Shown here piece after piece: positions 1-44,388 of a stretch of 64,000 nt of DNA (positions are counted from its first letter, which is position 1; each line of letters begins with the position of its first letter). The stretch is from Bryoerythrophyllum caledonicum (Eukaryota > Streptophyta > Bryopsida > Pottiales > Pottiaceae): positions 12,406,187 through 12,470,186 of the forward strand of contig OZ020525.1 of assembly GCA_963971425.1 (NCBI GenBank), in the 5' to 3' direction. The notes below the pieces were generated by a model that saw nothing but the letters and a program-made list of their open reading frames with translations, searched no databases and was not told the origin of the DNA. Made by a program: the position numbers and the translations under genes.

Positions 1-1904
1 GTCAGAAGCTTTGTAAGCTTGTATAGCTACTATAGGAGATGTGTCGCCAATTTTGCCCAAATTGCAGCTCCACTTACAAATCTACTTAAGAAGTTAGATA
101 AAGGAGAAAGCCCAATTTGGACGACAGAATGTGAAAAAGAATTCATTAAGTTGAAAGAAAAGCTAAGTACTATCCCTGTCTTGATTCCACCCAATTGGAG
201 TGAGCCCTTTCATGTGTATGTTGATGCATCCAACATTGCATTGGGCTGCGTGTTGAGCCAAAAAGATGAAAAGAATAGGGATCATTCCATTTATTTTGCT
301 AGCTGCCAATTAATTGAGGCCGAGAGAAATTATTCCATAACTGAGAGGGAGGCATTGGGAATGGTGTTTGCCGTACAAAAATTTCGCCATTACCTTTTAG
401 GATACCCCTTCACCTTTTATGTGGACCATGACGCGCTTAAGTACTTAGTCAATAAGCGTGATTTAAGCGGCAGGTTAGCCCGATGGATATTACTTTTTCA
501 AGAGTTCAATTTTACAATTGTGGTGAGGCCAGGCAAAAGCCATGCCAATGCGGACCATCTGTCCCGATTGGAACCACTGCCAACTGATCAGTTAGTTCCT
601 ATTGATGATAATTTACCAGACTCCCAGTTGTTTGACGTTGAAGTTATTCAGCCTGAGTATAAAGAAATTTTGGAATATTTGTCTACCAATAAAGTACCAT
701 TGGACTATACTCCCAAGCAGGTTAGTGCATTAGTCCACAAGTGTGGCCCTTACACCTTAATTGATAATACTTTGTATACAAAGGGAAAAGACATATATTA
801 AGACGGTGTGTATATAAGAATGAAATACCATTAATATTGGCGGGATGCCACACCGATGTATGTGGCGGCCATTTCGCTGGAGAAGCCTCTGCAAGAAAAG
901 CCCTATTGGCAGGCTATTGGTGGCCAGACCTTTTTAAAGATTTCCATTATTATACCCGGAAGTGTGACCCCTGTCAACGTATTAGGAAGCCCACCCCAAC
1001 CTCGGCTATGCCACTGCAACCCCTATTGGCATTGGCCCCATTTGAAAAATGGGGGATCGATTTTGTTGGACCCATAGTGCCAGCCACCAGACATGGGAGA
1101 AACCGTTATATTCTAATTGCAGCTGACTATGCAACCAAATGGGCGGAGGCCACAACCACACGAAATGACGATGCCAAGACTGTTGCTAGATTCCTCTATG
1201 AAAATATATTATCAAGGTATGGATGTCCTAAAGAGTTAATAAGTGATCGGGGGACCCATTTTTTAAATACGACAATTGAAATCCTCACAAATAACTTCTT
1301 CATCAAACATAGAAAGACAAGTCCATATCGCCCACAAGCTAATGGGTAGACGGAAAAGACCAATGGGATTCTCTATAAAATCTTGACAAAAACTATTGCA
1401 GGATCTGGAACCGATTGGGATGACAAGCTTTTGGGAGCACTTTGGGCCTATCGGGCAGCCTATAAAGTAACCACCAAGTTTACTCCGTTCCAATTGGTAT
1501 ACGGCCATGAAGCTATATTGCCAATCGAATTTGAAATCCCAACTTTGAGAATTGCCATTGACAACCGGTTAGATGATGATGCTAGCCTAGCAGCTCGACT
1601 AACCAGATTGGAATCTTTAGATGAAGCGGGCCGGATGGCGGTCTACAACACTTATGTCACCCAACAAAAAAGGAAATATTTTTATGACTCTAAACTATGA
1701 CAAAAACAATTCAAAGTGGGTGATCTTGTACTTTTACATGATAGTTGATTTTTTAAATTTCCTGGAAAACTCCAAATGCATTGGATTGGGCCCTATGAGG
1801 TCATTGACATAAATCCCAATGGGTCCGCCCAATTAAAAGAATTTGAAGGGACTTTACTTCCCACTCGTATTAATTGCTACCGATTGAAGCCTTATTTTAC
1901 TTAA
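1..1904 (+). pseudogene. Ty3/gypsy retrotransposon pol fragment (RT end, RNase H, integrase)
   Basis: The 3' part of a Ty3/gypsy polyprotein, cut off by the window start. Residues from base 19 are the end of reverse transcriptase running into the RNase H domain used by LTR retroelements ([50 protein letters not shown]). Integrase follows in another frame from about 837: zinc-binding H-H-C-C (GCHTD...CDPCQ) and a catalytic core with Asp in WGIDFVGP, Asp in ISDRG and Glu in TEKTNG. The C-terminal GDLVLLHDS and GKLQMHWIGPYEV segment runs to a TAA at 1902-1904. Breaks are a frame change near 801-837 and in-frame stops at 1347-1349 (just before the catalytic Glu), 1698-1700 and 1746-1748, so this copy is inactive. 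No chromodomain is visible after the integrase. Confidence 0.93.
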
Positions 1905-2509
1905 GCCGGGGCGGCTTAAGAATTGGGAGTAGGAGGGATATTATTTCTATATAAAAAAAAAAAAAAATTTTAAAAAAAAAAAATAAGAATTTAACTTAAG
2001 TAAAGAAATAATAATACATGGATACAGAAATAAATGAATGAATTAAGTAATAATGTCAACTATTTAAAAGAATAAAAATATTTCCAAAAGCGGGGAATCG
2101 AGATGCAATAGCATAATCATTCTGAAAACTCCAATGGGACGGAAACCGTTATTTGGCGGCACGCGAATGACCTCGCATCAATTGGATGTCCGAAGTGACT
2201 GAATGGGCTCATTATTGTCGGAATCAATGTGAAATAAAAAAATTAAAAAAATTAAAAAATCTAATCATGATGACGGTAACTAATGAACCGTATTTGAACA
2301 ACGGCCATGACCAATTGGGAGCTCAACACCAAGGAAAATAGAGTGGAGCAACGAAGCTAGCAGCGGTGCAGTAGAGGTTGATAGTGGAAGTTGTGCGTAG
2401 TTGTTTCCAATTGTGTGAAGAATTGATGAGTGAGGAAGTAGGATATTTGCAACGAATCTGGACGAGGTTGTGGAGTGTGGTTAGTTGGAGCGGAGCCGAT
2501 TGGAGCACG
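1905..2509 (+). other. Retroelement spacer with polypurine tract
   Basis: Non-coding. A purine-rich tract (GGGAGTAGGAGGGA, about 1924-1937) lies right after the pol stop and could be the polypurine tract that primes plus-strand synthesis next to a 3' LTR. An A-rich run follows at about 1952-1983. I could not find a matching second LTR in the window, so LTR limits are not called. Alternatively this is the spacer before a third ORF of the same element. Confidence 0.4.
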
Positions 2510-4082
2510 ATGAGCGACAAGGTCATCTTGCTGGATTCTGACTCTAATGGTGAGCCACAAGAGCAGCCGAGCTTATCTCGAGCGCCAATTGAAGAAGCCT
2601 AAGTTGGAAGAGGCGAATCAGGAGGAGTCGGAGTTGTTGTCAAGATGCGGAAGTCACACCAATCGGGGCGGTCACCGTGAAGGAAGAAACCGATTTGGGA
2701 CAACCATCTGGTGTCTGGGGATACTTTGACCCAATACTTCTTCGCCAATTGGCCGATTTTGCAGAGCAGCAGCAGAAAAGGGTGCAGGAGGAGGAGCCCC
2801 AAGGGAAGAACGAACGATTGGGAAAAGACCTGGCGGCATTGAAGAAGGAGTACTTGGCTACATCTGCAACTCAAGCCAATCAGGTGACCCAATTGCAAAA
2901 TCAAGTGGAGGAGCTACTTCAACAGCAAAAGGAAAAGGACGTGCAGTGGAGCCACCAATCGGAGAGTGAGCACAATCAAGAGGAGAGATTACGCATTAAC
3001 AATGAACAAGTGGACGAGCAGCTGGCGTCTCTGATGAAGCTGAAGTTTTTTTTCCAAACCAAATGGGAGGAGGCGGTCGAGGTGTATTCCACGATGAAGA
3101 AGACGGTGTCCGAGGCCAAACGAGAGTCTACGCAGAAGGAAGACGAGGTCCGCAAGCTGCAGGAGGTGATCTAGGCCAAAGACGAGCTAATTGGAGGATT
3201 GCAGACCCGATTGGACCAATTAAAACTTCAGGACGAGAGCCACCCAACAAGCTCTGTTGTGAGTCAAGCAGATAAGGCCAAAGGATTCTTGGTAGTGGTG
3301 GAGCCCGATGAGCGCATGGTCCAAGTAACCGACCTATTGGCGTTGAATGCTTATCTCCCACCTGCCAAGAGCATCGAGCACGCGTACATGTGGGATAGGC
3401 AACAGTTTTTTCTAATTACACGCATATACTATAGGGATATGCTGGACCATAGTCAATTTCAACATATTTGGAATTTAGCGCGGCATTTCTCCATGGAGGA
3501 TATGGTGGTGGAGATTTTAGTGCGAGGAGATCTCCGATTGACCGAGCCAGCACGCGCGTACATCCTAATTGGAGATGTAGGACCCCGGGTGTTTATTTAT
3601 TACCGCGAGCTGGAGATGAACCAGATGGCAAGAAGACGATCGGACGAGACCTATCAAGAGAAGACTAGGAACTTGTATTGCGCAGAACTTTCTCGTGCAA
3701 TGGCGATAGACCTCCAAAAAAAGTGGCACGAATTACCAATTGAGTCTTGGAAGTATGAAGTGCGTGCCCTGGCCATAATTTTTGATTCGGAAGGATGGGT
3801 GGTGGAAATGATTCGGCAGTATCAGGAGAGGGCGACGTACACCAAATGCTCGGATGTACACACATCTCAATACTTTTACACCTATCGGGCGATGGAGGCA
3901 CGTTTGAAACAGGTGGTAGCTGCCAAAGATTTCAACATGCTCCTTCTATGGAGTCTTGTACAGGATGCCACGATGAAGAATGGGTATACATTTACCAATC
4001 GGCCCAAGGCTCTGATCAGTATAAAGGAGGATCTAGACGCATGGCAGCCCATGGTGGTGTCGACGGATGTAGATGATTTTTT
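2510..4082 (+). pseudogene. Coiled-coil ORF of the retroelement, 5' part (interrupted)
   Basis: A long reading frame downstream of pol and in the same sense. It starts near ATG 2510 (MSDKVILLDSDS), changes frame twice before about 2650, then stays open in one frame from about 2620 to the insertion point, broken only by a TAG at 3172-3174. The first half (about 2750-3240) is a Glu/Gln/Lys-rich coiled coil. The second half is a folded region (AYMWDRQQFFLITRIYYRD, RHFSMEDMVVEILVRGDLRLTEPARAYILIGDVG) that I do not recognise. At 4083 the frame runs into a MULE terminus, giving an artificial tail up to a stop at 4168-4170. The true continuation is at 18694. It may be a third (env-position) ORF of a Ty3/gypsy element or the gag of a neighbouring copy; no zinc knuckle is seen. 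Confidence 0.7.
4073..4082 (+). repeat. Target-site duplication, left copy (ATGATTTTTT)
   Basis: Ten bases identical to 18684-18693. They directly abut the left inverted repeat of the MULE. Ten bases fits the 9-11 bp target duplications of Mutator-like elements. Confidence 0.88.
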
Positions 4083-4147
4083 GGACCAAGCTATTTTGCG
4101 AGCCGAATTTTGCGAGCTGCGAGCTGCGAGCCTACAGTTGCGAGCCT
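4083..4147 (+). repeat. MULE left terminal inverted repeat
   Basis: Begins GGACCAAGCTATTTTGCG and continues with a TGCGAGC-rich stretch. The inverted partner is 18619-18683. The TGCGAGC motif is repeated within the arm, which could hold subterminal transposase-binding sites (inference). Confidence 0.85.
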
Positions 4148-4927
4148 TGAGGGCAAATATGTTGTTCTGAATTTTAAAAAGGCAAGAAAAAGGAAAAGTT
4201 TAATGGATTTTTTTTGTAACAATTGTTGAAACCTATAGATTTATGGACCTATTACCGTGGAGTACAGTGTACAAATTGTACGCAACGGGTTGTAAAATTG
4301 ACAATTTGGCTTAAATTTTATTTTGAATGGGTCCATGGCCGTGGATCTATTGTTCAACAATGAATTGCAGATAGGATATCCAGGGATGTAAAGCTCTTGA
4401 GCAGGGTTGAAGGAAGAAAAAATGATAGTGCAAGAGGTAGTGTTTAGGGTCGTCGACTTGTCGTAGTTTATTTTTTGGGGGGATTAGAAAGTAAGAATTA
4501 GATGTACAGATAGTAAGGATAAAAGCAAGAGCTTCATAGTCCTGAGGAGCCACGACAGTTTAGGGTTAGACAGTAATGGAAAATGAAAGATATAGGCTTA
4601 GACTAAACAACGTCAGGGTCTCATGGGAGTCCAGTAGGAAGTGATTCATTTAAGAGATTGACATTTCAATTTGATGTAGGATAATAGCCAGCAAATCCAG
4701 TTCATTTTAGAGATATAGGAAGTTTTAAGAAGTAAGGGTGAGCTTGGAATAGGATAAACAGAGACTCAGGAGGGTCAATGGAAGGGTGATAGATGAAACA
4801 AGGATTAGAGTTTACGGCCAAGGTTCAGGGACAAGATGTACAAACTGTGGAGGTGGCCCTTTTAGTCTCACCGCCTTTCAAATGGAAGGAGTGACTCAGT
4901 ACAAGATCAAAGAAGTACGAATGGCAG
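4148..4927. other. Gene-free MULE interior next to the left end
   Basis: No open frame of note, no tandem repeat and no palindrome of the TGCCGA type. It lies between the left terminal repeat and the 3' end of the transposase gene, so it presumably holds that gene's 3' untranslated region. Confidence 0.4.
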
Positions 4928-7900
4928 CTATGCACCGTAGTATTTAAGGAGCACAATCTGGACAATTCGCTTTATCTCATTCCAGCTGAAACTAGGTGCG
5001 TGAATAAACAGATCTACCTCCGGGTCTAAACCACACACAATGTTAAAGATGTAATAGAGGTGCTTACAGTAAGTCCAGGAACCGCATTTGCCGAGTGATT
5101 TCTTGGACATCTCTGTAAAAGACAGGCAGTCGCAGCTTGGAAACTGGCCAATTGTTATGAAATATCGGGAAATTGTGGAAATGTTTCGAGATTCCAAAGT
5201 CACAATGCAACCCAAAGCAGGAGGCGGAACCATCAGAATCGAGCAAATTTTGCCCATAATAGAAAGAGCTGAGGCGCAGCTGTTATGATGTCGAGTAGTA
5301 GGAGCAGCGTCGTTTCTTCGAATGTTCTTCCCATACCGCTTGGTAGGATGCTCTGTAGGGTTTGGAGGAGCAACATAATCTTTGAGGTTTGGGGTGACAC
5401 CTTCACCAAACAGCTTGCGAGGTGACAAAACCTCACGCTCAGCGAGACAGAACCCTGCGTTTTCCAAGGCAAGTATCTCTGTTTTGCTCAGGTCGGTGCC
5501 CATCTGAACTGGCCAATACGTCGGGGGGGGAGGCATACTTTGAACCCACTTGCGTCTTGTGCCCATAACACAACGTTGAATGTCGTCGCTACAGAAGAAG
5601 AACCGATGTCTCTCTAACCTTGTCTTCCTGAAATTGTCCATCAGACCACTATATGTAGGGGCAGCTGTCGCTCGGTTGTTCTGCACAATCGTGGACACAC
5701 ACTTCTTTCTCGTACCGACATGTAGAGCGAAACATTTTCTAGCAGATGTCTTGGGAAGTCTTGCAATGTGCCATTCATTCTCATCACATACTGTCTCCTG
5801 CACTGCTTTGACATGTCGAGTCCGGGATGATATTAGCGGAGATGAAAGACGTACTTGAGGAGCTACCGGAGATCGATTTACAGACAACGGGGGATCTTCT
5901 GCTGTGAGGTCGACAATCACTTGATCGATGCGTCGTGCCTTACCCCTAGGCCGGGAGACGCTAATCATATCAGGGCGATGTGAATCAAATTCAGATCCAG
6001 GAGGAAGGTCAGCTTTTCTCTTCAAAGATACAAACTCCTCTTCTCCTTCAAGGTGAGGAGTGCGGATACAAAATTCGTCCGCACTAGGCATGTTGGCGAG
6101 GGCAGAATGAAGGACCTTGGCATTACCTGAACTTTGGGCAGTGCGGTGGGCAGTTCGGAGCCGCAATTCTTCCTTCCCTGGACTTGTACCTGGCTTCTCA
6201 CCCTTCAGGAATTGGTAGTATGCAACAACCTGCATGAAAGCACGAACCATGTCGTCGACTGCAGCAACGTACAAATCATTGCCTCTTTTTCCCGACTGTT
6301 GCAACCACTTGTTATGAACGGATTCGACCAAATTACAAGATGGCATCTCGGATAGTTCTGCTTCACTGAGGTTCTACAGAAAAACAAAATCAAGCATTGT
6401 TAGATTGAATCGCAAGAACAGTAGGGCACATGATACAAGAGCAAGACGCCACTGAAAATGGTGATTACGTTAAAAGTGGATTACTTGCAGCAATGCCAAA
6501 CACGGCAATCTTGATAGGCATTTTCGTTAGATTTATTGACAGAGAAATGAACAGAGACACCTCATAGGTACTGCCGATGTCGGCAAAGGAAAAACTTATC
6601 CCATCACAAAGAAGCCAAGATTAATGTGACGTCGGTCAGGGTTGGAGGCATGCCGACATCGGCAATATTCAAGAAATGAAATTCAACTTCAGATATTTGA
6701 AGTATATTAAGAGTGCGAAACATGTATCATATGTGAGGATTACAGATAACAGAAATTGATGCAATGTAGAGGAGTTACTAATAAACTTACGAGCTCCATG
6801 AATCCTCCCCACTGCCGATATCGGAAATGCCAAAAAGTAAGCCAGAGCTCTAGTCGTGGAAGAGCTTCATCAGTTGCCGCCCCTGAGGACAACCACCACG
6901 CCCTTATTGCCAAGTACCTGCACTCTGCCACCTCCAAAGAAATGGAATTTTTGTGCTGCTTACAAAGCTTTCGGTGCTGATCGTGAAGGTCAGTTCGAAT
7001 ATCGGCCTTCGTATGCTTTTCTGGAGACTGAGCCCAATGAAAAAGACAGGTTCTTTCTCGGGCCTCCATGGGAACGCCTGCATCGCCGCTACCGTATATT
7101 ATTCGAACAACATTCCACTTAGCCTGAGCGCTACTGGCCATGAATCCTTTGAAATTCGGATCAGGCAAGTCGTGTCTGCTGCTGACTGCATTAAGATTGC
7201 GCCAGAACACTTGTTGGGCTGCAACGTCTTCAGACTGCATATCGCAGACTGCTATAGTCATGACTTTACAGTAAGTAGAGTCGTAAACATGGCAAGCCAT
7301 TGTGGTCCATGATTTCACGCGTTTGACATGGTCGAACATCGTCCAGGAATCCTGCAAATCACCTCCGGGTTGCATTCGCTTAACTAAATCAACTCCACTT
7401 CCCGGACCCAATTCAGCCATTTTGAAGATGAAGATTTTATCAGAATCTGTCCCTTGGCCCGGGAAACGATTCTCCTGGATGAAGGCCTAGTTGCTGGAAC
7501 CTCTAAGTTTGGTGATGCTATCCATGACACCAAAACGGCGAAGGTAACGGAACGTTGTCACCTCATTCCGAATACTAGGTGAAGACATCTCTTTAAACTT
7601 GTCTAAGACAGGGACAAATTCTTCAAACGCTAGAGTCTTCTGAGGAACACCATCTGGGCATAGCAGAAGCTCCCCCTAGGTACTCCTTGCTAGCCTCTAG
7701 AACAATAGAAGAATTTGTTGCTGCCGGTGTTCGCTCCACTTGGTCGCTAATGAGGGAACGAAGCTTTGCTGACGAGTCCCGGTAGTTTCCTTTCTTTACG
7801 GCGTGAACGTGTGACCCCAAATGGATGCAAGCATGAGTCATATGGCTTTCGCCAAGAACGTAGTAAATCTTTGCTAGGCAACATCCAAAACAAGTGGGCG

Positions 7901-8915
7901 GAACTTGACACACAACACAAACAACAGTGGAATTATGAGGTGGGTCACAACCAGGAACAAACCGAGATGCAGAATTGCCCTCCCACTCAGTCTCATTCAC
8001 GGATGACAACCTGTTAGGACGCTTAAGAAAATCACATGATTCATTGGCACACTTGAGGCCGCCTAGACAGGAAGACATTCGAAAGGTGAGATTAAACTCG
8101 GATTTGATATGTGTAGTGGCAGTTCGAGTCCAAGCGTGACCGTCATCCCGCTTGTCCATTCCTTGGAGATGACCTGCGTTTGTGGATGGAGGGTACTTTC
8201 CCAAAGGCGGAAGTTCGAAGATAACATCTCCATCGAACTCGGGAGGAAGAAAATCAACCTTTCGAACAGGAATGGACTTGTAATCTAGCTTTGCCAGTAT
8301 AGACTTGGAACCTCGACGGGTGCCAAGAAGACAAAGGCAATGCACGATACTATCATTAGAAGGGAGAGGGGGTCTGCAATTGCTACGACGTTCACTCAGA
8401 GGGGAACTGGACTCAAGATAACTGACGACAACCTTCGGTCGAGGAACGCTCGGAAGGGAACTTGTTGGGATGCAGTCGCTGTCAGAGTCGTCACTGAGAA
8501 GGACAACGATTTCATCTAGCGGCTCAAGTTTGACCTTCCGAAGAAGAGGAGTAACATCCTTTGCAGGTGAACAATGACCAGGGGTTAGATTAGATAATGA
8601 AAAGTCAGTGGCATTGTCTCTAGTCCCATACACTCTATAGTTACCGGAAACTAATAACCATGTCTTCGGACTATCTGGGGAGCATGGCATCTGAGCTACA
8701 GTATGAGAGAGGTCGTTTGAGAGGGGGTCAAGAACATCCATGTCAACATGAAGACTGTGCTCAACGAAGCAAAACCGAGCTGCTAAACGACTTCCAGAAA
8801 CAGTAGCGAAACCATTTTCAAGTACTGGAAAGGAGATTGGAATAGCTTGACCATCAGCTCGAATTAGAACAGATCCAGAGATCGTATTCTGGGACGACGC
8901 CATGTAATGAATCAA
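4928..8915 (-). pseudogene. MULE-family transposase with SWIM zinc finger (broken)
   Basis: Exon 1 runs from ATG 8915 (or the internal ATG at 8903) down to 6791; the intron is 6374-6790 (GTAAGT donor, CTGTAG acceptor, phase 0); exon 2 is 6373-4928. N-terminal part: an acidic segment, then a Cys/His-rich region (CVVCQVPPTCFGCC, HACIHLG). Core: AVCDMQSED supplies a candidate first catalytic Asp, and CLFHW matches the CxxH signature of MULE transposases. After the intron come NLVESVHNKWLQQSGKRGNDLY and, near the C terminus, a SWIM finger (CDC...CKH, about 5060-5134) typical of MULE/FAR1-like proteins. VIVDLTAED (about 5903-5926) and IVVLLSDDSDSD (about 8480-8515) look like SUMO-interaction motifs. 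Breaks: a one-base frame change near 7670 and a TAG at 7487-7489. The expected second Asp position reads FMASSAQ. Confidence 0.82.
6494..6826. repeat. Four TGCCGA-type palindromes in the transposase intron and exon edge
   Basis: TGCCAAACACGGCA (6494-6507, imperfect), TGCCGATGTCGGCA (6572-6585), TGCCGACATCGGCA (6651-6664) and TGCCGATATCGGAA (6813-6826). The first three lie in the transposase intron. The fourth is inside the coding sequence for FRYRQW. They belong to the same family as the sites in the divergent gene. Confidence 0.8.
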
Positions 8916-9572
8916 ACTTAGAGAAGTAACTCATAAGAAGAGTGAATAGTAAGGCAAATGATAAATTTTTGGGACGTCTCGGTCTTTAGGATGCGCTAGA
9001 GAGAAGATGGAGTTCAGATTATTATGGCGTAAGTTCTGGGAGGATGAGGTACTAACTATTGAAGACTAGTGTCGTTGGGATATGCCGCCGATTTCTAAGA
9101 GGGAAGATCTCTGACAGTCGCAAAGATTCAGTTCTAGGAAAGTATAATGCAACGCTTGTCGTATTCTTTATTCTTTGCCAACAGAAGTATAATTTATGTA
9201 CATTAAATTAAAATGATAAACAATGTGGCCGTCATTCCGCAACTCTGATGCTAGTGCTTCAATAATGAACTCCAAGAAATGGCGGCAAAAATTTAACTAT
9301 TTCCAAATATAAAATCTCAGCAGAATGGAAATGAATGCGTGCCATATTTGGGGGATACGTGATGGAGGATTGTGCCAGGGATATGATCTTGGAGAATAAA
9401 AAATCGAGTATAGGACCCTAGGTGAATTTGAAATTGGTCGATAAGTAGGACAGCCATGAAAAGGTTTATCTCACTAGGAACAGTAGTCCCTCATTCGAGG
9501 ACAATGCAAAAGAAGCGAAGGAAGCAGTCATTATTCTTTTCGAGTCGAAAGCAGCTGAATTGATCAAGGCTG
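8916..9572. promoter_or_regulatory. Divergent intergenic region between the two MULE genes
   Basis: 657 bases separate the two head-to-head start codons, so both promoters should lie here. A TATAAA at about 9307-9312 sits roughly 260 bases upstream of the plus-strand ATG. The other AT-rich patches are too generic to call. No TGCCGA palindrome occurs in this gap. Confidence 0.4.
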
Positions 9573-12500
9573 ATGAGGGAGATGAGATCAACCGCAAGAT
9601 TAGCCGATTTAGGAGACATCACACGAGTGCTTCAGTTTGAAAACTCAGGGTTTGTAGAAGACGAGACGGATGGATCTGGTGAGGTTCATCTCCATCAACT
9701 TGGTGAAAGCGAGATAGGACGAACACTACCCGAGACTCTCAGAGGCAGCCAGAGCGCCAGCACGAGTGAGGACGGTGATGGAGAATGTCGAAGAACTAGG
9801 GTAATGAATGCAATCGTGGACCAAGGTAAGTACAAGTGGTTCGATTAAACTTCTTCTTCTTTGCACAGTATGTTTCAAGTCCCGTCGATTTCATATAGTA
9901 AAATTTCTAGTCCCGTCGATTATAAGCTTTGCTACTTCAGAACAGCTGCAAACAAATCTAGTAGTGAACATTGGAGCAACCCCTAAACTTGAAATCATTG
10001 TCTTGGCATTGCTCATTGTCTAAATTCTGATTTGAGAGATTTATTTCACGAAGTTCTGAAATATCTCGCTTAATGGAAATTAATAATGATTTGAATTCAA
10101 ACCGTGCAGGCGAAGAGGACTCACAAAGTATGAGTGAAGGAAAAGCAAAATCGAAGGACAATAGAGAGGTCGGGATTGCAGGTTAGTTGATTCTTTTTTT
10201 ATATTGATTGATGAACCACACCCACTACCTAGTAGTACTTATAGCGTTGTGAAGGTAAGCAAGTGTGCAGTAAACGGAGAGTACTGCGAACCCTTGAGAA
10301 AATAATATGGAGTGGCCGAGCTCCTATGAAGAAGCAACAGTCATTGCTGGCTGAACCCTCGGAGGGCTGCCGATATCGGCAGCTCCAACACGAAGGCGCC
10401 GCCCTCATCTTATGATTGATTTACTGGCATCGCAGTTTCAATTGGTATATCTCATGACGTGTAGCATTTTAGCATCAGCTCCGAAATAGTGTGTTTAGGG
10501 AATTTCAAGGCAACTTCGTGTCGTTGACCAGCACTCGCAACGACCTGAATCATCAGAAAAGTGCTTCCATACACATTTGCTGGAGTGTGCTTTCGGTTTA
10601 GTTTCGAAGTCGTTTTGCCGAAAGAGGAGTTGGTGGACAGCAAGTTTGGCTAATTCATGTTTTCGGACGAGAAGGGAGAGAGGCTATGTAGCGGAGGATC
10701 TGGAGGGAGAGTTACCGCAGTGAGATCAGTTTGGCTGTGCGTGACGCTGCATATTGGCAATCATTTTAGGGTTTGGTAATCGATTCGCATTCCATTTCAC
10801 AACCAGCGAGGTGAGTTTCTGTAGATCGTTGAATCGCCAAATGCTTAACCAATTCATCTTCTGTCGCCACTCACCGGTTGAAAACTGCGGGAGGTGTTTA
10901 TGTTTGAGGACGAGTTTATTGCTATTCACGATCTTCGACGAGCAAGAGGAATATTCTGTTAGGACTCAGAGTTTCGTGACAAGGTGTACAAGAGAATCGC
11001 TTTTTTTTGGGCAATCTGTGACTGTGATTGCTCATACCCATTGAGAGGAGTATTAGGAATGCGATATTTTGGATCAGGTGCTACGCGGAGCTCTACAACA
11101 TTCGGAGAGTGGATATCTTTTTCATTCTAGAGAACTGAAATGACGAATTGGAGATTCGGTAACGTCAGTCGTGTGCTATTTTGCAGGTGAGACTGATTTG
11201 CACAGTATGGATGATAAGATTGGAGAGTCAGAGATCATGAGAGACACGGGCGTTCAAGGTTCGTTTCATCCCTCTTTCTAATTGTCGACTCTTGCTCCTA
11301 GGGTTTCAGCTCTTATAAGAAAAATGTATATCGAAACGACAGTTAGAGATCGTAGCAATGACTGTAATCACAACCCGCAACACCACGGAGGCGCTGCCCA
11401 CGGGAGCGCACGCCCCGCGGAGGAGCTGCCGATAGCGGCAGCCCTCCGGTGAGGGTGTCGCCAGTGATGGCGGCACCCTCACTGGAGGGCTGCCGCTGTC
11501 GGCAGCTCCTCCGTGGAGGCGCTGCCCATGGGAGCGCACGCCCCGCGGAGGGCTGCCGCTGTTGGCAGCTCCTCCGCGGGGCGTGCGCTCCCGTGGGAGG
11601 ACAACTAGCTTGAATTCAACGAAAAGCAGATCGCTTGCAATCCAGGAACTTAAGTTCTAGTTCGTCTTCGAAATTATTGTGTAAGGGATTTTTTAGCACA
11701 AGCATATAGTTTTTACGTACTATCTATCTAGACACACAATATCTTTGTTCGAATCGTCATATCAACAGAATTAAACCTCATGCTTTATAATTTAGTGATG
11801 GTTGTGTCAGTTTTGGTCTTGGCATCTGAAGCTTCGACTCATCTGAAACCTCATTCATTCAAGGGCTGGTAATTTATTACTATTGGTGTGATGCAGTTGA
11901 TGATGAGACCTGCACTACTTGAATTAACCGGGTTCAGTGAAAACTTCTTGTTTGCAGGTGCTGAGGCCGACGAGGTCGAAACTCCAATTGTCTTGGTGGA
12001 CCCAGAATACTTGGATAACGCGGCAGTCCTGCAGGAGAAGCTCTCTCGTGTGTCTCCTGCACAAATGTCAGCAGAGGAGCTTGGAAGGGAGATGGACAAA
12101 TTAGTCGTCATGGAGTTAGCCAATACCAGTCTAATTTTTGACGAACGGCGCTTTAAACCCAAGAATAAGTCTAAGCTTAATATTCCTTTGTGCAGAATGT
12201 TGCCTCTAGCTGCGGTAAGGCCATATCTGAAGAATGATGTTATGGCTCTTGGAGCTCAGTTTGTGAGCACGGGCTACATGGATGGGCACAGAGTTTTCTA
12301 CGTTGCGATACATGACAATGAGGGCAAATCGCAGGATGTCTCTGATGCAATCACAGGTAGCTGGAGCCAGTCGTGGGTTAAGGCGAACATTGACTTTGAG
12401 ATTGAGTTATTGAAAGAGGAGGTGTGGAAGCAGTTTTCGGGAAAGATGTTTTTCGTTTGGGATGGGAATCATAGGCTAGCTGCTTGGTTGCCCATAATTA

Positions 12501-15500
12501 ATAGGGATCATGGGAGCGACCCAGCTTGGCATTATGCCGTTGAGTCAATCATTCTTGAAGTCCAAGGGCAGGTGGGGCGGCTTCAAACTGCGCTACACCA
12601 AGTGAATTGGTAAACCTCTTAACTCATTTGTAATAACTGTTCATTTTCACTTGTATGTTTCTAATTAATATTTTGTTGAACTGCAGGCGAAATCAAACAG
12701 GACACGTTAAACTAAACCTTGTGCACAAGTTGTATCGCATGCAAAACATTGCAGGCCAGCCTTTGAAGTTTTTCGAGGATTTGGTATCGACGGAAGACCT
12801 TGCGAACGCGGACAAGAAGCAAAAGTCTTCTAACCACCAAACCTGGTACACATTAACAGTCGATGCTCTAATCACAGTTCTCTACCAGGTGGGCTCTTGA
12901 TCATTTTCTTTAGTCTGTGTGGTGGCATTCTCGAACTGTTTGTGCCGATTTCGGCATTCACATCCGGTATTGTTCTTGATTAAATTGCACCAGGCCGGCT
13001 CTTGTCACGACAAAGCCACTTTTTTTGTGTTGTGATCTTAATGATTTTTCTTCCCATGAATTCTGAATTTCCATTCCGGTGCACCCATTCTAATTGTCAT
13101 TATTTCAGCAAGAGTTAGAAGATGCAGTCGCCCACGCCACCAGGAAGTTTAAGGAAAAGTTTCCTGAACAATCGAGTGACTGGAACACAGCCACACTTCA
13201 TGAAGACATTGGGAGAGCCGTTGCGAAGATTAGGAAGGATAGACGGTCTGAAGTTTTGAAGCAGCTTCCAATAGCTGATCCTAAGCACTCTCCCCAGTTC
13301 CTAGAGGAGGTTCGAAAGCACTACGAGAACCACGAAGATGACCCTGAAATGTCCCAGGAAAAGCTCTGGTACTTAGCCACCTCCGCCATGGACGCAGCAA
13401 CGAAGATCAAGTGGTTGCAGCGATGGAATATGCCAGCATCTCTTCAGGCAGCCGTCCGCTTTCCTCGATCAAAGTTTACTGACCATTCCTTTCCTGAGTG
13501 GCTGCACAAGGCAACTTGGTGGGCACAAGTAAGTTCAACTTTTGTACCTGAAAGTCAATTTACATTGCTACAGCATCCTGAAAATTCTCCTTTTCTTTCG
13601 ACAGATTGTCACTGAAGTTGAAGACCTCTTCACTGCCTCCCTGTCCGATCTCAATGTAACCATTGACTATCATCCTCCAGGCCTATGCGTTGTCAAGAGT
13701 CTTGCTGATTACGTTGAGGAGATGCGGATTCAACTCTGGGATCTGGCTTTTGTTCAAGATTTCGAGGCCAACAAAAGTCATAAGAATAAACAACCGGAGG
13801 ACCAGGACGGACTTGCCGAGGCGGTTGCAAGAGTTCTTTATAGGTACTATCACTTTGTGCTTCTCCTACAGAATGCTGTATCAAAAACTCCTGCTTTCTT
13901 TCCTAGATACCTCGATAGAAGAAGTGACAATTGCATGATAACCGACGAGATTGCGAAGAGGTGGGGTCAAGAGCATTTCACAACTTGCGGCTGGTATTTA
14001 GATTGCCCACTCAATTGTCCTCCATTGTTCGAGATCTCACTTCGCAACGGGATTCAGCCTGCTTTGACTGGCTCGGAAACGGTTGTTCTACCGGCGGTTG
14101 CTGAAGCCAGAACAAAGAAGCCACGGGTCTCAAAGAGGAAAGCCGAAGAAGAGGCAAAGAAGAAGGCTGCTGAAGCAGAAATGGCGGTACTAATCGAACT
14201 GAAGGCAGCTCTGGCAGAAGAGAATACGAATAGGTTGGGAGAGGCCGTCGTCGCCGAATCCAGCCTGCCGATAGCGGAGGAGCCCTCGTTATTCCCTACA
14301 GGTGAGTGCCCTCAAAACAACCTTTCACCCTTAAAACTACCCTCTTTTTATCCAAGATGTAAATTTCCAAATTTTGACAAATTTTGAAGTATGAAACCGT
14401 AACATCTAGTACAGAACCTGTTCATGTACACCTTAATCAGAATCTTTGATTCAAACTTATCACCATTTGTGACATCGTAATGCTCGAAGTATAAAAACTT
14501 ACTTTTTCCTAGTTGTACAGTGGAAAACTACTGTTTTGGGGTCCGATAAAACCATTTTTTATAGAGAATTTGTCATGAGCTCTTGAAATTCTTGTCCCTA
14601 TCTGAATGAGGAATATGCCCATATAATATTTACCCTACCAGGACCCTCTAAACCTAAAGAAATGCTTCATTTCTCGCATTTAAGTATGCTGAAATTCATA
14701 CACAAATGCCCATTTTTAACAATTATAACGACGTGTAAAAAATTATGGGATTCATAATTCAATAGGTGAGATCATGCTTTACCATCGCTTTTACATGAAC
14801 AAAAAACAGAATTCGGGAAATTGTAAGATCTCAATTTCTGTTGAATTTTTGAAGTTGCTTAAATCTAAGTGATTTTGGGCAGATTTTTAGAATGAATGAG
14901 TATATACCACAGTTCTAGGCGGATTTCAGCATGCCTTAAAAGTGTTTTTAAACTCTGACCGTCTATATCCTCTAAAGTATGAAGAATTTTGAAGCAGGAA
15001 TGGTGTCATTGGAAAGGAATGGAAAAACTCTGGAACCTGTTAGAAGTTGAAACTTCATACGATCAAAATTTATTAACTAAGAGCCTGATCAGCCAGATCG
15101 ATCACAATCTTATCGATTTCTCCATTACGGGTTAACAACAACTAACGATATGGATTTTTGAGTTGTCGTTCCAGACCTTGCTGCCCAAGTTATTCCGTTC
15201 ATCTTTGCATCCTGCCCAGAGGCTCAGACTATTGATCTTGAAGTTGACCATTCCAGCCACGTCTCAACAATCTCTGAAAACCTTAAGAGGCGTGGGGCTT
15301 CAAGGAAGTCCCAAACCAAGCAAGCCACCTCAGTTCAATCTCGTGTTTTCGTTGCTAACTCTAGTATCAGACAGATTATGGAGGCTCTTCCCAACGTTCA
15401 TCCGAGTCTTCAAGGACTTAACGAGTTTGCCCTAGAGGTATTGTTCTCATTTTCTTTAAACAAATTATCAACCTGATATTTCTTACTGTTGTCTCTTCTT

Positions 15501-17202
15501 GTATTCTTCATGCATTTATTTATACAGTTATTGATTAATTTGTAATCTTGTTACATTGTTATCGTTGAGGATTTATTGTGGATGACGGCACTACAAATTT
15601 TTTACATCAGCTTATTCTATATTGAATTCTCGAATCTAGCTACCAATGCATTTATTATTCCGGATTTTTTCTTTTCTATCTGACTTGCACCACTGAATGC
15701 CGAAGTTGGCAGCGATGTCCTTGAAATACAGTATGCTTTCCATGGAGATGAACACGCACTACCGATATCGGCAGTCATTTTCGATTTCCTATTCATTTGT
15801 AATCTGTCCTCTTTGTTATCATTCCACTTCTGTTTCCTCTTGAGAGATGGCATATTTTTGTCTGGTTATCTCTGCTCTGAACTTATGTTCTAATATTATT
15901 GATCATCATTCTTTTTCAGGTCAAGAAAGAGAGTGGTACCATGTCTCTTTCAGCGCAGTGTCCGCATAGCGGCTTCGATTTTATTATGGGAGACCTTAAG
16001 GACGGCATGATGGTTCCAACCGTCTCCGAGAACTCAGGCCACATCCCTCTCTGGAATGTTTATGCCGTCGAGGACACAGAGACGCTTTTCGAGTTTGCTG
16101 AGCATTTTCTTCAACCTCAGGGGGGTGTTCTTCTGTTTGTTCCCGACGTCCCGAACATAAAAGCTGATGTTTTGTCATTCGCGGCCGCTTATAGCTTTCA
16201 ACCAATTCGTGAGTGGTGGGGCATTAACGACCTTCCCTTGTCGTCGTTCTTCTCTCCTGGTATTCAGGTATACCTTGTTTTTTTTCCCTCTAAACTTCTT
16301 AACTTCGGTCGTGAATTTTACTCATTCTGTGTGTTCTCTCAATTTCAGAGCAAGCGCTTCAAGGTTCAACTCTTCATTCATGACAAGCTTGGTGCTGATC
16401 ACTTTGACATTGCTATTAATGATGAACACACCGCATTGGGCATGGGAGTTGGGGATTCGAATGTGTTGTTCAATTTTACTTCGAAGGAGTCTCAGTCGAT
16501 GAATGGGTCGGTTCCGTGGAGGGGCCCCCGTGAGAAAGACTCAGTCTTCATTGAGATGTTCATTGAGGCCCTGACAAAACCTGGCCAGCTCGTCTTGGAT
16601 GCCTTCGCCTCTGTCAGTAATTTCTTAGCCTTATCATTCTACATGCATCAGTGGTCGCTAATTCCAGCATCATGTTTCTCTTCCATCATTTACTAATATG
16701 TTTTCATTGCAGGGAATGGAATTCGTGCTTGCAAATCAGCGGGCCGGCATATCGTAGCACTCGACGACGACATTTCAATCTTCAACGCAAAATTGAAACC
16801 TTTTCTTCAAGGTCGTCCTCCAGTAGCTCGTGTTCCCTTTGTTGCTCAGGGTCGGCCGCTTATTGACGTGGACGTCCCCATTCGGAGAGTTTCAAAAAGA
16901 ACTAGATTGAGTAAGTAAGTTCGATTCTATACTTGCTCTCCAATTCTGCAGGTCTTTATTCTATCCATAACTCTATTCTCGTTGACATGGACAGGTTGAT
17001 TGAGCAACAATTATCCCCAGACCGAGACTTCGTCATGGCACCTTGGGATGCGGCAGCTGCTACTGTACAAGCTCTTACACAATCTCCATCTTTGACTTCG
17101 TCTGTTCCTACTTACGACCATCGTGTTTGTTGTTTCATTGATGATGAAGCCGAGGTGGAGATTTTCAACCGATCACCTTCCACAGACAGTTCCGTCGATT
17201 AG
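9573..17202 (+). CDS. ParB/sulfiredoxin-like plus N4/N6 DNA-methyltransferase-like protein, 12 exons
   Basis: Exons: 9573-9825, 10110-10181, 11187-11258, 11958-12609, 12687-12888, 13109-13528, 13605-14301, 15175-15437, 15920-16267, 16349-16616, 16713-16910, 16952-17202. All junctions are GT-AG, the phases match and the sum is 3696 nt (1231 aa, ending TAG). Residues 1-132 are acidic and encoded partly by twin 72-nt exons. About 205-320 is ParB/Srx-like (LAAVRPYLKNDVM, then FVWDGNHRLAAW with D301-R305). About 725-770 is a basic coiled coil (KKPRVSKRK, a possible nuclear signal). From about 878 the layout follows beta-class amino-methyltransferases: an early catalytic-motif region, then REKDSVFIEMFIEALTKPGQLVLDAFAS and GRHIVALDDD. 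The expected [DNS]PP[YFW] is not seen; its likely place reads GDLKDG, and motif I reads ASVRNG instead of a Gly-rich loop. The exon 10 donor (GTCA|GTAATT) is the one that keeps the frame open; the GT four bases earlier leads to a stop. The first exon is the least certain. Confidence 0.78.
10368..10381. repeat. Perfect 14-bp palindrome in intron 2 of the ParB/MTase-like gene
   Basis: TGCCGATATCGGCA, flanked by GGAGGGC on the left and GCTCC on the right, so the inverted repeat extends outward. It is the cleanest member of the family found across the element. Confidence 0.85.
11375..11605. repeat. GC-rich nested hairpins holding three palindromes (intron 3)
   Basis: Two adjacent inverted repeats. 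The first is centred near 11457 (GGTGAGGGTG...CACCCTCACT arms). The second is centred near 11561 (GGGAGCGCACGCCCCGCGG and its complement). Each arm carries a TGCCG(A/C)T..CGGCA core: 11427-11440, 11491-11504 and 11554-11567. The whole block is far more GC-rich than the surrounding intron and could form a long stem in DNA or pre-mRNA. Confidence 0.85.
12943..12956. repeat. TGCCGATTTCGGCA palindrome in intron 5
   Basis: A member of the same family, in the 220-bp intron between exons 5 and 6. A half-degenerate relative, TGCCGATAGCGGAG, lies in coding exon 7 at 14266-14279. Confidence 0.75.
14302..15174 (+). other. Long intron 7 of the ParB/MTase-like gene
   Basis: 873 bases between a GTGAGT donor and a TTCCAG acceptor. 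AT-rich with many stops in every frame. I see no palindrome, tandem repeat or hidden exon. Confidence 0.6.
15698..15773. repeat. Two TGCCGA-type palindromes in intron 8
   Basis: TGCCGAAGTTGGCA (15698-15711) and TACCGATATCGGCA (15760-15773), in the intron between exons 8 and 9. Confidence 0.75.
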
Positions 17203-17489
17203 CAATTCTGACATCATATTTGATGTTGTTTTTGTTAGGCCATTATCATTTTAAATCTATCTTCTGGTTTCAAAGTCCTCTTACCACATAATATGCTGAC
17301 CAACGCACACAATCCACCAATGCACCTTCTCTGAGTTTCATTTTCCTGATTACTCATGCACGCTGACCTAGTTCTGCAAGTCCTTCAACCTTCCTCTTCT
17401 GCTCTTGAGTCTTTTAAACTCACTAATTCCTAAATTCCTACTTTGATTCTGGTACTGTACTAATACCCCAAATTGCACGGTTTAGGGAT

Positions 17490-18180
17490 GAACAAACTTT
17501 GACTTCACTTTGTATTAAGTTTTTTGCATTGTACAAGGTCTACATCTTTTACCGTTGTCTTAAGCATAATGTTATTTCCCAACACGCCACATTTTTTAGG
17601 TAAAAAAGGGGTGTAGCATATTTAAAACAAGTGTGGAAGGAGTGGAGGTTCAAAAATTGCCTTTTCACGTTTAATTTTTTGTGAACTACGTATGTACTCA
17701 AATGATAATCCAAATGGTCAATAAGAAGGTTTTCACCACATATTGTTGTTGAAAAAATAAGAAGTGAAGAATAAGATCTGTAGGTTTTATGTAGAAAAGA
17801 TGTAATACTCTTCCCCCGTTGCTCGACAATGTGTGAAAATGTTTGACTTCGGACCCTAAACCGTTTTTCACTAAAGAGAAGAATTTTTTTTTAAATTTCC
17901 AAAGAAGGCAATATTCTTTATGTGTGAAAAATCTCAATGTCAATAGAAACTTCTGTCAAGATTTTTGGAGTTCCCCGGAGTCCCCCCTTTTCGCTCTTAG
18001 TGGTACTAACTTTTAAACCACAAATCCAAAATATAAAATAAAAACATCTCCACAAAGCTCTTATCAGGGTCAATCTAGATTTAAAATTTTAGAAAAAAAG
18101 GATTTTTTCGGATTTTTAGGAACGTGCCCAAAATGAGAAATACCCCCGACTGAGATTTTGCCCTTTAAGGGTTAACAGTG
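17490..18180 (+). repeat. Dispersed repeat family, copy 1
   Basis: Closely similar to 40066-40705 over its whole length. Shared landmarks in order are TTTGACTTCACTT, GTGTAGCATATT, AAAACAAGTGTG, GGTCAATAAGAAGGTTTTCA, CAATGTGTGAAAATGTTTGA, CAAAGAAG and TAGAAACTTCT. A partial third copy is at about 37350-37720. No ORF is present, so it is probably a non-autonomous element or the non-coding part of one. This copy sits inside the MULE, between the cargo gene and the right terminus. Confidence 0.75.
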
Positions 18181-18618
18181 GAAACATATCAGCTCTGCTA
18201 CTAAGTATGACATGAGCGTGCAAAGCTTTACAGTTAATCTCTTCTCACTTAAGACTTCTCTTCAACGTCATTGTATAATCCTAACCCTATGCTATTTCCA
18301 TAGGTCTACCAGTCTTTCCAAATGAACCCTATATCCCACGGCCATAGGGTATTTTGAGTAGTTATGTTGCAGTATAGGTCACCTCCATTTCAACCCATAA
18401 CCTTCTTATTATAGAACTTTGTTCATAGTAACTGATCATGTTCACGCATTTCCACGGCTATTAGGGCCTCCCCTTTTATCTTATACTTTTACCTTTCCTT
18501 TTTTTCCGTCCCTTTTTTATGACTTTCTTCAATTTTTTTCAAACTTTTTATTTGCTAACTTGATAAATGCTCAGTTACTTTTACTTTATCATCGAAAGTT
18601 CACAATTATTTCATTTCT

Positions 18619-18683
18619 ATGCTCGCAAATCTAGGCTCGCAACTCGCAGCTCGCATAATTGGGCACGCAAAATAGCAATCCCC
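18619..18683 (-). repeat. MULE right terminal inverted repeat
   Basis: The reverse complement begins GGGGATTGCTATTTTGCG and pairs with 4083-4147. The five positions after the initial GG are the least conserved. The inner 58 bases match at about 88 percent. Confidence 0.85.
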
Positions 18684-18693
18684 ATGATTTTTT
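18684..18693 (+). repeat. Target-site duplication, right copy (ATGATTTTTT)
   Basis: Identical to 4073-4082. It immediately follows the right inverted repeat and restarts the interrupted retroelement ORF in its original frame. Confidence 0.88.
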
Positions 18694-41432: not shown

Positions 41433-44388
41433 ATGATGTCTACACAAGACCAGCGCGAGGAGGACATCGTTGGCGATGGCTCCGTTGACATTCGGGGACG
41501 ACCCGCCAGGAAATCAACTTCAGGGCGATGGAAAGCTGCCTACTTCGTCATGGGTAAGCTCACACTCACTCTTTGTAGTTCACATGCATGTCAAGTTGGA
41601 AATTCAACTTGTTGAGTATTGCAGTTGAAGCAACTTAGACGTCGACAATGACTTTGTACTTATTTGGACAAAAGGAGTTATTAAATGAGAATATCGGGAA
41701 CTTTGTGGGAGAAGGATGTCCAAAGTCTAGAGATTTTCTAGATGCCAAAGTATGTGAAATGCTGCCGCCAAATTCCCAATATCTCGATTGTTGACAAACT
41801 GCAAAAGACTCAATTTCGCTTGTGTTGCTTGATTTCACAGGAGTGCAGCTTACGGAGAGAACTGCTTATTATAGCATCGTTCTCAACTTGGTCACGTACT
41901 TAGTCCGGGAGCTTCATGAAGGCACAGCAAAGTCTAGCACCACAGTCTTCAATTGGGCCGGGGTAGTATGGATATTACCGCTTCTGGGAGGCTTTCTGGC
42001 AGACGCATACATAGGCCGGTTCTACATGATTGTTGTATCGTCCATTATCTACATCATCGTACGTAATCTCAAACTTAAAAATCACTACTATCAAACCTGT
42101 TTTGTCCTCCCTAGAAAACGGTTTAATTTTTGTCTCTTCGGGAAAACGAAAGTTTTGCTACAAGATTTAGTTGTGTAACCTTTAGTAATATTTCCTTGCC
42201 TCATTACAGGGTCTGATTGTGCTAGCGCTGTCGATGTCGGTGGATGGGCTTCGGCCGCCGCCGTGCCCTGCACTTGTGGACTGCATCCCTGCCACCACGA
42301 CGCAGAAGGGCATTCTTTACCTGGCGCTCTATGTGGTGGCCATCGGCATCGGCGGCATCTCGCCTTGTCTCTCTCCTTTTGGTGCAGATCAGTTCAATGA
42401 GGACGACGAGGATGAGAAGCGGATGAAGCGCTCGTTTTTCAATTACTGGGGGATCTCGGTCGCCGGTGGAGGCGTCTTTGCTCTTTCATGTAAGGCCCAA
42501 CTGTCTATATTGTTCCTACCTTTGCTCATAAGTCGTTCACACAACTCATTCCCTGAGAAGCCATTATAAAGTTCCAGAAATTCGGTCGCAGAAATAAGTT
42601 GTTCGTTGACGGAATTGCGACAATCCTCGCCAGTCCGTGTGCATGTCCATCCCGTAAGTTGTAAAGTATCCAAAATATATTCATAGAAATTTCAAGAATA
42701 TATTCAGAAAATGTCCAATAAAAAACTAGGGAGTATATTTCATGTCCATCACCTCCATTAGGGACAACTGAAGGCCTCGTCCTCGTCCTCGTCCGTCTTT
42801 ATAGATAACCCTGTTTGTAGGCAACAAGAGTCAATTGTTTGTGACAGACTTTGTTTCTACTTCTGGTCCCTGTCTGTGACAGATTGCATATTATGACACT
42901 TTCTACTTGTTATTCCCTGGAGATACTTTTCTGTGATTTTCACTGATAGCTTGAACAATGTTTTGACCTCCATTGTTTTTGCAGTTGTAATTTATGTGCA
43001 GGACCGTGTGTCGTGGGGATGGGGCTACGCCATTCCGGCGTTCGGAATGGGCCTGGCACTGGTGCTGGTGCTCTGCGGCTTGCCCAGATACCGACACCAG
43101 CCGCCTTCAGGCAGCCCCTTGGCACAGGTTGCTCAGGTGTTCACGGCGGCGATCCTGAATGCGAAGAAAACCGCTCCGGCTGATCCCAGTTTGCTGTACG
43201 ACATCCTTGTCAAGGGCAAGCGAAATGTCCTTCACACCAACACATTAAGGTGCGTGTGTATCCATGACCAGTCCCCATAATTTCATCCCATAATGCATGG
43301 CCTCCAGAATTACATGGTCTTCAGACTTACAGCCCATAATGATCTGTCTTTACATGTTCTAATGGCAATAGCTGTTTGATTATTTTGGAGGTTTTTGGTA
43401 CCATTGGCGCATCTGTGTAAAATTTTCTGGTATCAAATTTTACGGTGTCAAATGAAAATTAAGCATCGGGTAAAGTAGTTTTCGACTAACTTTATGAAGG
43501 GCCGGTACCTGTGACAGATTTCTAGACAAAGCTGCAGTGGTGGATCCCAAGCTCCACGTCAATTCCGAAGCGAACCCCAACGACCCCGAGAAGCCCCGCA
43601 TCTCAGGTCTGAACCCCTGGCGCGTCTGCAGCGTGACGCAAGTCGAAGAAATCAAGCTCCTCGTGCGCGTCCTGCCAATCTGGGTGTTCTCCCTGATGTT
43701 CATGGTGCACGTGACGCAGCTCACCTCCTTCTTCCTGCGCCAGTCGCTAAGCCTAGACCTTTCGATGGGCCCCAACTTCAAGATCCCCGCCGCGTCAATG
43801 ACCATCTTCAACTCGCTCACCGCCATCGCGTGCATCCCGCTCTACGACCGCTACTTCGTGCCCTTCGCGCGCCGCTTCACGGGCAACGAGCGGGGCATCT
43901 CCATGCTGCAGCGCATCGGCGCCGGGATGGCCATCACCACGCTCACCATGGCAGTCGCCGCGCTAGTGGAGATCAAGCGCCTGGACGTGATCAAAGCGCA
44001 CGGACTTGAAGATAAACCGAGAATCCCCATTCCCATGAGCGTCTTCTGGTTGCTACCACAGTATATGATCCTCGGAGTCGCGGAAATCCTTGTCATCATT
44101 GGTCAGATTGAGTTTTTCTATGATCAGGCGCCGGATGATATGCAGAGCATTGGGACGGCGCTCTACACGACGAACTCGGCCGTGGCGCACTTCATATGCA
44201 CTGGCATTGTGGAGCTGGTGGTGAAGGTGACCGGGACCGGACGCGGTGGGTGGATAGTGAATAATATTAACCGGTGTCGGATCGATAAGTATTACTGGTT
44301 GCTTACGGTTCTGGGCGCGGTAAACCTCGTGTTTTATGTTTTAGTAGCGAAATGGTATACGTATAAGAAAGTTGAGCGGTGGAATTGA
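41433..44388 (+). CDS. NRT1/PTR family (NPF) proton-coupled transporter
   Basis: Five exons with GT-AG junctions and matching phases: 41433-41553, 41841-42058, 42210-42489, 42985-43249, 43518-44388. They encode 584 residues, the usual NPF length. Family hallmarks in order: LTERTAYYSIVLNLVTYL in TM1, WILPLLGGFLADAYIGRF, LRPPPC, FGADQF(N)EDDEDEKRMKRSFFNYW, VIYVQDRVSWGWGYAIP, HTNTLRFLDKAAVVDP after the central loop, LPIWVFSLMFMVHVTQLTSFFLRQ, and the last transmembrane segments around QYMILGVAEILVIIGQIEFFYDQAP. Members move nitrate, peptides, hormones or glucosinolates across the plasma membrane or tonoplast with protons. Odd features: the ExxER motif reads Q43-L-T-E46-R47, and the conserved TM4 lysine position is Ser164 (GGISPC), while the TM10 partner Glu484 is kept. 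The start is the first of two adjacent ATGs. No frameshift or stop is seen. Confidence 0.95.

Follow-up and report, generated by a model that had tools for sequence, protein, structure and literature searches.

The 64,000-nucleotide stretch of Bryoerythrophyllum caledonicum analysed here (assembly GCA_963971425.1, contig OZ020525.1, positions 12,406,187 to 12,470,186 of the forward strand; hereafter the window) carries a 14,601-bp transposable element at 4083-18683, within which a multi-exon gene, referred to below as the cargo gene, lies head-to-head with a transposase. This gene is a real, conserved and mobile second gene of a two-gene transposon family that resembles the Mutator-like elements (MULEs). 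Its product ends in a domain related, by profile comparison, to N4/N6 amino-methyltransferases, in which the catalytic DPPY motif has been replaced. An original prediction, made from the letters of this DNA alone, had described the gene as MULE cargo joining a ParB/Srx-like domain to a DNA-methyltransferase-like one. We are evenly divided on the explanation that we favour as a whole, namely that the product is a DNA-binding accessory factor, with a ParB-like domain and a dead methyltransferase-like domain, that aids its element without methylating DNA.

An element that moves as one unit

The element is delimited by inverted repeats and by target-site duplications:

4073-4082, no strand: left target-site duplication, ATGATTTTTT, 10 bp, identical to 18684-18693
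4083-4145, plus strand: left terminal inverted repeat, beginning GGACCAAGCTATTTTGCG; the left end is the same in three other copies
18621-18683, minus strand: right terminal inverted repeat, finishing GCAAAATAGCAATCCCC; near-identical copies cease aligning here
18684-18693, no strand: right target-site duplication, identical to 4073-4082

The inverted repeats are 89% complementary over 56 nt (4090-4145 against 18621-18676). Comparison of the cargo product with the genome gave 112 exon matches, which were grouped by hand into 38 cargo loci, and 17 cargo loci were compared, each as a 10-kb piece. The terminal motif was present with differing flanks in 14 of these 17. Three loci (L041, L042 and L043) are 99.66-99.82% identical to a fourth (L040) over about 6.5 kb, lie at different sites and share with it the right terminus at which all the alignments end. 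The four copies examined at both ends, that of the window and three others, all have 10-bp target-site duplications, through which the right ends in L040, L043 and L041 pair with the left ends in L048, L049 and L050; the L048/L040 duplication was read by eye, and its ten bases recur elsewhere in the repetitive flank. Given the shared right end, the differing flanks, the near-identical copies and the duplications, the transposase and the cargo gene belong to one recently moved unit.

Using 137 of the 151 transposase-core matches in the genome, we found the transposase upstream and on the opposite strand in 32 of the 38 cargo loci, at less than 11 kb in 28 and at 15-24 kb in 4, while the other 6 had no transposase match within 30 kb and no other orientation occurred. 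A simple binomial calculation for the 28 of 38 loci gives a probability of about 2e-69, a figure that ignores the shared descent of the copies. The element ends, the duplications and these 32 loci bear out the earlier claim that the gene lies within transposon ends and travels with a transposase; with 32 of 38 loci adjoining a transposase, the gene was not found routinely outside element termini.

The transposase itself is split into three blocks:

4931-6373, minus strand: C-terminal block, with a CxC...CxH pattern found at 5060-5134 and no Pfam match
6743-7486, minus strand: core block, with D-S-T-Y near 7282 and a CLFH motif (first D and CLFH located by eye)
7626-8930, minus strand: N-terminal block, separated from the core by a frame change and an in-frame stop and so broken in this copy

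Because these blocks form no single frame in the window copy (frame change near 7675, in-frame stop before 7486), the window element is probably non-autonomous. Other copies in the genome hold long open frames around the core, for instance one of 775 residues at C7:1556863. MULE transposases combine a DDE core that has a C..H pattern with a SWIM-type CxCxnCxH. The CxC...CxH pattern found here is presumably of the SWIM kind, and codon 7133-7135 encodes Ser in the window copy, at a position where the second catalytic Asp would be expected. MULEs generate target-site duplications of about 8-11 bp, and inverted repeats are common among them, if not universal; the 10-bp duplication and the 56-nt repeats at 89% agree with both traits. 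Up to E 10, no Pfam profile matched any of the three blocks, and since there was no profile match to a MULE transposase domain we write MULE-like rather than MULE. The original assignment to MULEs is based on the duplications, the inverted repeats and the transposase motifs, and was not upheld by Pfam for any piece of the transposase.

By eye, the element interrupts an open frame (3199-4170) of an apparent Gypsy-type retroelement that resumes after 18693. This Gypsy-like sequence (1-4072 and 18694 onward, again by eye) holds further reading frames at 2677-4170.

Structure and conservation of the cargo gene

Twelve exons with GT-AG introns, on the plus strand at 9573-17202, give one open frame from the ATG at 9573 to the stop codon at 17200-17202. 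The exon count, end points and quoted motifs of the original prediction were all recovered; its length of 1231 residues was not reproduced, the model giving 1218. The exons, all on the plus strand, are as follows:

9573-9825, plus: exon 1, uncertain; gene model, with a single partial match (70%) in L010
10110-10181, plus: exon 2, uncertain; gene model only
11187-11258, plus: exon 3, uncertain; gene model and one other copy (L029, 57%)
11958-12609, plus: exon 4, ParB-like region, from IPLCRM at 12182 to about 12556, with DGNHRLAAW at 12461-12487
12687-12888, plus: exon 5; gene model and genome copies
13109-13528, plus: exon 6; gene model and genome copies
13605-14301, plus: exon 7; gene model and genome copies
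15175-15437, plus: exon 8; gene model and genome copies
15920-16267, plus: exon 9, with the motif IV counterpart GDLKDG at 15989-16006
16349-16616, plus: exon 10, with PWRGPREK at 16514-16537 and the first half of motif I, LVLDAFASV, at 16589-16615
16713-16914, plus: exon 11, with the second half of motif I, NGIRACKSAGRHIVALDDD
16995-17202, plus: exon 12, including the stop; gene model and genome copies

Canonical splice sites were seen among the tblastn matches at 46 of 46 exon 4 donors, 35 of 35 exon 10 acceptors, 36 of 36 exon 10 donors, 34 of 36 exon 9 acceptors, 38 of 42 exon 5 acceptors and 39 of 45 exon 7 acceptors; the matches are not independent, since overlapping or near-identical loci are among them. 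Exons 4-12 were all matched in 15 of the 17 cargo loci, the exceptions being L039, whose copy belongs to the window's own family (family A) and ends in exon 8, and L047, in which an exon 8 match was absent. A frame change splits one exon in L036 and another in L046. The matched exon pieces of 12 loci (2 partial loci included) were free of stops, and those of the other 5 contained at least one, a count of stops only that leaves out frame changes. The copies at L040-L043 are among those free of stops. The genome search with the cargo product returned nothing that started before residue 123, most of the fetched pieces hardly reaching exons 1-2. Since exons 1-3 are without support, the first ~132 residues of the protein are uncertain. 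Intron 7 of the window copy (14302-15174, 873 nt) is an intron gain or insertion within the window's subfamily, exons 7 and 8 being nearly contiguous in other subfamilies.

The ratio of nonsynonymous to synonymous substitution rates (dN/dS, Nei-Gojobori) was computed for 15 pairs, of which the well-separated ones span 913-1063 codons. It was 0.110-0.141 in 8 pairs (dS 0.92-1.21) and 0.22-0.36 in 4 close pairs; the 3 pairs involving L047 were saturated. Between the window and L040, the ratio was 0.09 for exon 4, 0.04 for exons 5-6, 0.14 for exon 7, 0.36 for exon 8, 0.17 for exons 9-11 and 0.52 for exon 12. The cargo gene is thus under purifying selection, which, together with the many copies, rules out a chance frame or a pseudogene.

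Plant MULEs often carry host fragments, according to passages of PMC6446971 and PMC13317346, and the gene might likewise be a captured host gene or fragment, travelling as a Pack-MULE-type passenger. We consider this highly improbable for a whole multi-exon gene that is under purifying selection and present in many copies and in two diverged families, the second of which (family B) is described below. This rejection covers the 32 loci that adjoin a transposase and one family-B locus; a resident host copy might lie among the other 6 loci or the remaining family-B loci.

The C-terminal domain resembles an amino-methyltransferase without its catalytic motif

The Pfam family PF01555 (cut-off 26.7 bits) matched the window copy at E 0.0063 (16.9 bits), a family-A query at E 4.2e-5 (24.0 bits) and a family-B query at E 5.2e-7 (30.3 bits), so that only the last lies above the cut-off; all of these matches are confined to the part of the profile from about position 163 of 221 onward. 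PHROG families of DNA methyltransferases were matched at best at E 1.9e-5 and 2.3e-6, and NCBIfam CcrM at E 9e-5 for family B. Searched against the PDB with an E limit of 10, a joint profile returned 15 sequences, of which 8 were amino-methyltransferases, led by DpnA (5hek and 5hfj, E 1.9e-5 and 2.1e-5), CcrMI (0.032) and RsrI (0.34); the other 7 (E at least 0.29) align elsewhere and look unrelated. The methyltransferase matches centre on PWRGxREK, followed by VLDxxASxGxS and RHIxAL(D/E)D, and the motif I region lies at the C-terminal end, as it does in DpnA, CcrMI and RsrI. Judged by these profiles, the domain is related to the N4/N6 amino-methyltransferases.

Unlike in those three enzymes, DPPY is replaced in every readable row. 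In family A, its place is taken by D[LV][KQ]D in all 38 rows with letters, the window included (10 more rows are without letters; rows are loci, some of them overlapping). Among the 35 public protein clusters found for the methyltransferase-like region, [DN][VM][PLH][EK] occurs in 22, the other 13 being missed by this pattern, and [DNS]PP[YFW] was found nowhere in the 35. In motif I of the window copy, the codon spanning exons 10 and 11 encodes Arg, whereas in most sister copies the splice sites yield a Gly codon at this position. Since DPPY is absent from every readable row and homologue and the motif I Gly is lost in the window, the domain is probably a pseudo-enzyme. What survives of the original claim is the relationship to N4/N6 amino-methyltransferases; the activity implied by "methylase" is made doubtful by a motif IV that is DLKD- or DVPE-like.

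The alternative is that the domain still acts as an enzyme, methylating DNA or RNA through an unorthodox catalytic motif and thereby marking the DNA of the element. The domain is constrained: over exons 9-11, 4 pairs gave a dN/dS of 0.16-0.24, with saturation in a fifth, and between family B here and its relative on a database contig (L054, see below) the proportions of nonsynonymous and synonymous differences (pN and pS) were 0.133 and 0.708 over the methyltransferase-like part. In family B and in P0015, motif I departs little from the canonical form, and around the degenerate motif IV the residues D, VP, PxWN and FxPD are invariant in six rows from both families. Set against the replacement of DPPY throughout the readable rows and homologues and the missing glycine of the window copy, this leaves a catalytic domain unlikely in our view.

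A candidate ParB-like region in exon 4

Exon 4 encodes the pattern IPLCRMxxLxxVRPxLKxDV...GYxxGxxVFYVA...FxVWDGNHRLxAW...H...V(E)SIIL, which is conserved across an alignment of the window copy with 77 of the 120 listed relatives, 78 sequences in all; within it, WDGNHR is invariant or nearly so. A public search with this region scored 8000 candidates and kept at least 325 protein clusters at E<=0.1; of the 7998 candidates scored with the whole 1218-residue product as query, none reached E<=0.001. Across the 78 members, Pfam gave nothing significant for ParB (CB_ParB_C in 3, best E 0.089), alongside further weak hits, for instance to DUF5531 in 10; the ParB-like partition protein of PHROG appeared in 6, below significance (best E 0.05), and NCBIfam gave no ParB match. 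The structure models are weak, with a mean predicted local distance difference test score (pLDDT) of 41.7 for the first and 58.1 for the ParB-like region, and Foldseek returned no match for the latter at E<=0.001, the ParB-like PadC ranking third of 14 at E 5.4. The predicted order of strands and helices in the exon 4 region (mean pLDDT 58) is compatible with that of the ParB/Srx fold. The DGNHR motif and the predicted strand order suggest, as a working hypothesis, a ParB/Srx identity for this domain. These two features are what remains of the earlier ParB/Srx assignment, for which the Pfam, PHROG and NCBIfam scores were insignificant and the fold model too weak.

In exon 4, within the insert that separates the FYV strand from the FVWDG strand, the ParB-like profile matched one ribosomal eL24 chain over about 50 residues (E 0.00038 and 0.00026), its sole match below E 0.2. 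We take this resemblance to be due to chance.

Possible roles of the cargo protein

On the explanation that we favour, the protein would carry a ParB-like domain at its N-terminus and, beyond a long middle region, a methyltransferase-like C-terminal domain lacking the catalytic DPPY, which may have kept S-adenosylmethionine (SAM) as a structural ligand. It would bind the non-coding DNA of its own element and aid the expression or transposition of that element, in a VANC-like or MURB-like role, without DNA methylation. Candidate binding sites are provided by palindromes in non-coding parts:

6572-6664, no strand: a pair of TGCCG-N4-CGGCA palindromes lying between transposase blocks, candidate sites for the protein
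10368-12956, no strand: four such palindromes in cargo introns, at 10368, 11427, 11491 and 12943

TGCCG-N2..6-CGGCA occurs 6 times inside the element and nowhere else in the window. Over 14 loci, 94 kb of element sequence contained 25 such palindromes and 46 kb of flanking sequence none, the independent count being smaller because some of these loci are near-identical. A looser count, with one mismatch to GCCGATATCGGC allowed, placed about 27 sites within elements and 3 beyond them, the latter all in the L032 flank. GC-rich inverted repeats surround the palindromes of intron 3 (11397-11597).

Such clustering is what might be expected if the protein specifically counters silencing, by binding these motifs and removing or blocking host cytosine methylation, as VANC does in the VANDAL MULEs of Arabidopsis, where related elements become hypomethylated in a sequence-specific manner. 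Those elements likewise are DNA transposons that combine a transposase with a separate accessory protein, and motifs in non-coding parts are the suspected target here too. VANC carries DUF1985 and DUF287, according to a passage of PMC5735166, whereas a Pfam scan of the whole cargo product at E up to 1 matched PF01555 only and neither of those two domains. The inverted repeats of VANDALs are described in part of PMC6446971 as absent or as short and degenerate, with some exceptions, unlike the clear ones found here. The parallel with VANC drawn in the original prediction thus holds for the architecture and for nothing beyond it. With the near-identical copies and the looser count also lessening the contrast between element and flank, we regard anti-silencing as possible but rather doubtful; as a special case of the explanation that we favour, it overlaps with it in probability.

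Somewhat less probable still is a mainly transpositional role, in which the ParB-like domain nicks or clamps the element ends in the manner of MURB or of a nicking ParB-methylase. The transposase, where present within 30 kb, is always upstream and head-to-head. The second gene of maize MuDR, which we take to be MURB, likewise adjoins the transposase in a Mutator element and is likened to the cargo gene by description, not by sequence. The function of the Mutator second gene is given as unknown in a passage of PMC6446971, where the gene is apparently required for integration, and the ParB-methylase fusion Bce_0392 of Bacillus cereus is reported, in part of PMC5512222, to nick DNA unspecifically. 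Bacterial and phage fusions of this kind likewise join ParB-like and amino-methyltransferase-like domains in one protein, a likeness drawn without alignment; they differ from the cargo protein, which has about 550 residues between the domains, has lost DPPY, is encoded with introns and is carried by a eukaryotic transposon. A ParB mechanism presupposes a ParB fold, which is hypothetical here.

Several points weigh against the accessory factor without catalysis that we favour. DNA binding is hypothetical, as is the ParB fold, the invariant residues near motif IV could also mean an unusual enzyme, the support from family B comes from one examined copy, and anti-silencing is proposed by analogy with VANC only.

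How mobile DNA overcomes host silencing can be learned from transposons that carry a dedicated second protein, a kind of protein of which plants offer few known examples. The cargo protein looks unrelated to VANC and has at least two families in this genome and many public relatives. A more speculative idea, which we hold to be rather improbable, is that a land-plant transposon lineage has made a bacterial-type ParB-methylase its dedicated, catalytically dead factor, reading or shielding element DNA against silencing; if so, the VANC strategy would have been invented independently from unrelated parts. The recent near-identical copies make the role of the protein directly testable. No description of such a gene was recognized among the papers listed in our literature search, a statement limited to those listings.

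A second cargo family and further relatives

The diverged relative that defines family B was found in L039 (886-4720, with L051, C15), in an element of its own nested in the family-A copy. Its identity to family A is 40% over the ParB-like part and 23% over the long exon. The right end of this copy resembles that of family A, and upstream, on the opposite strand, lies a sequence related to the N-terminal block of the transposase (32%, E 4.7e-53); the layout is known from this one copy, the alignment of which stops short of the left end. Two family-B exons each gave at least 150 matches in the genome, roughly 30 of them at 95% identity or more. Since 32 of the 35 family-B loci compared have no family-A transposase core within 30 kb, we infer that family B probably has its own transposase. 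The other 3 include the C15 copy, for which a family-A core lies 18.7 kb upstream on the opposite strand, beyond the copy's own transposase relative.

Eight further PF01555 matches above the cut-off, in frames of 153 residues, were located at C9:14278932, C3:25317, C3:3869951, C7:25541665, C11:23603760, C2:24590736, C4:18222308 and C4:12907793 and may represent a third cargo group. Among viral contigs, 29 pattern matches were obtained and none was confirmed. Database genome contigs gave 8 matches, of which L054 was the sole one confirmed. This contig, titled as an uncultured Synechococcales cyanobacterium, contains at 621-4053 an intron-split family-B gene with 62-67% identity and, because the gene is split much like the plant family-B gene, is probably plant contamination of a cyanobacterial bin. 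Elsewhere in the window, a frame at 43537-44388 resembles, by eye, a plant NRT1/PTR transporter.

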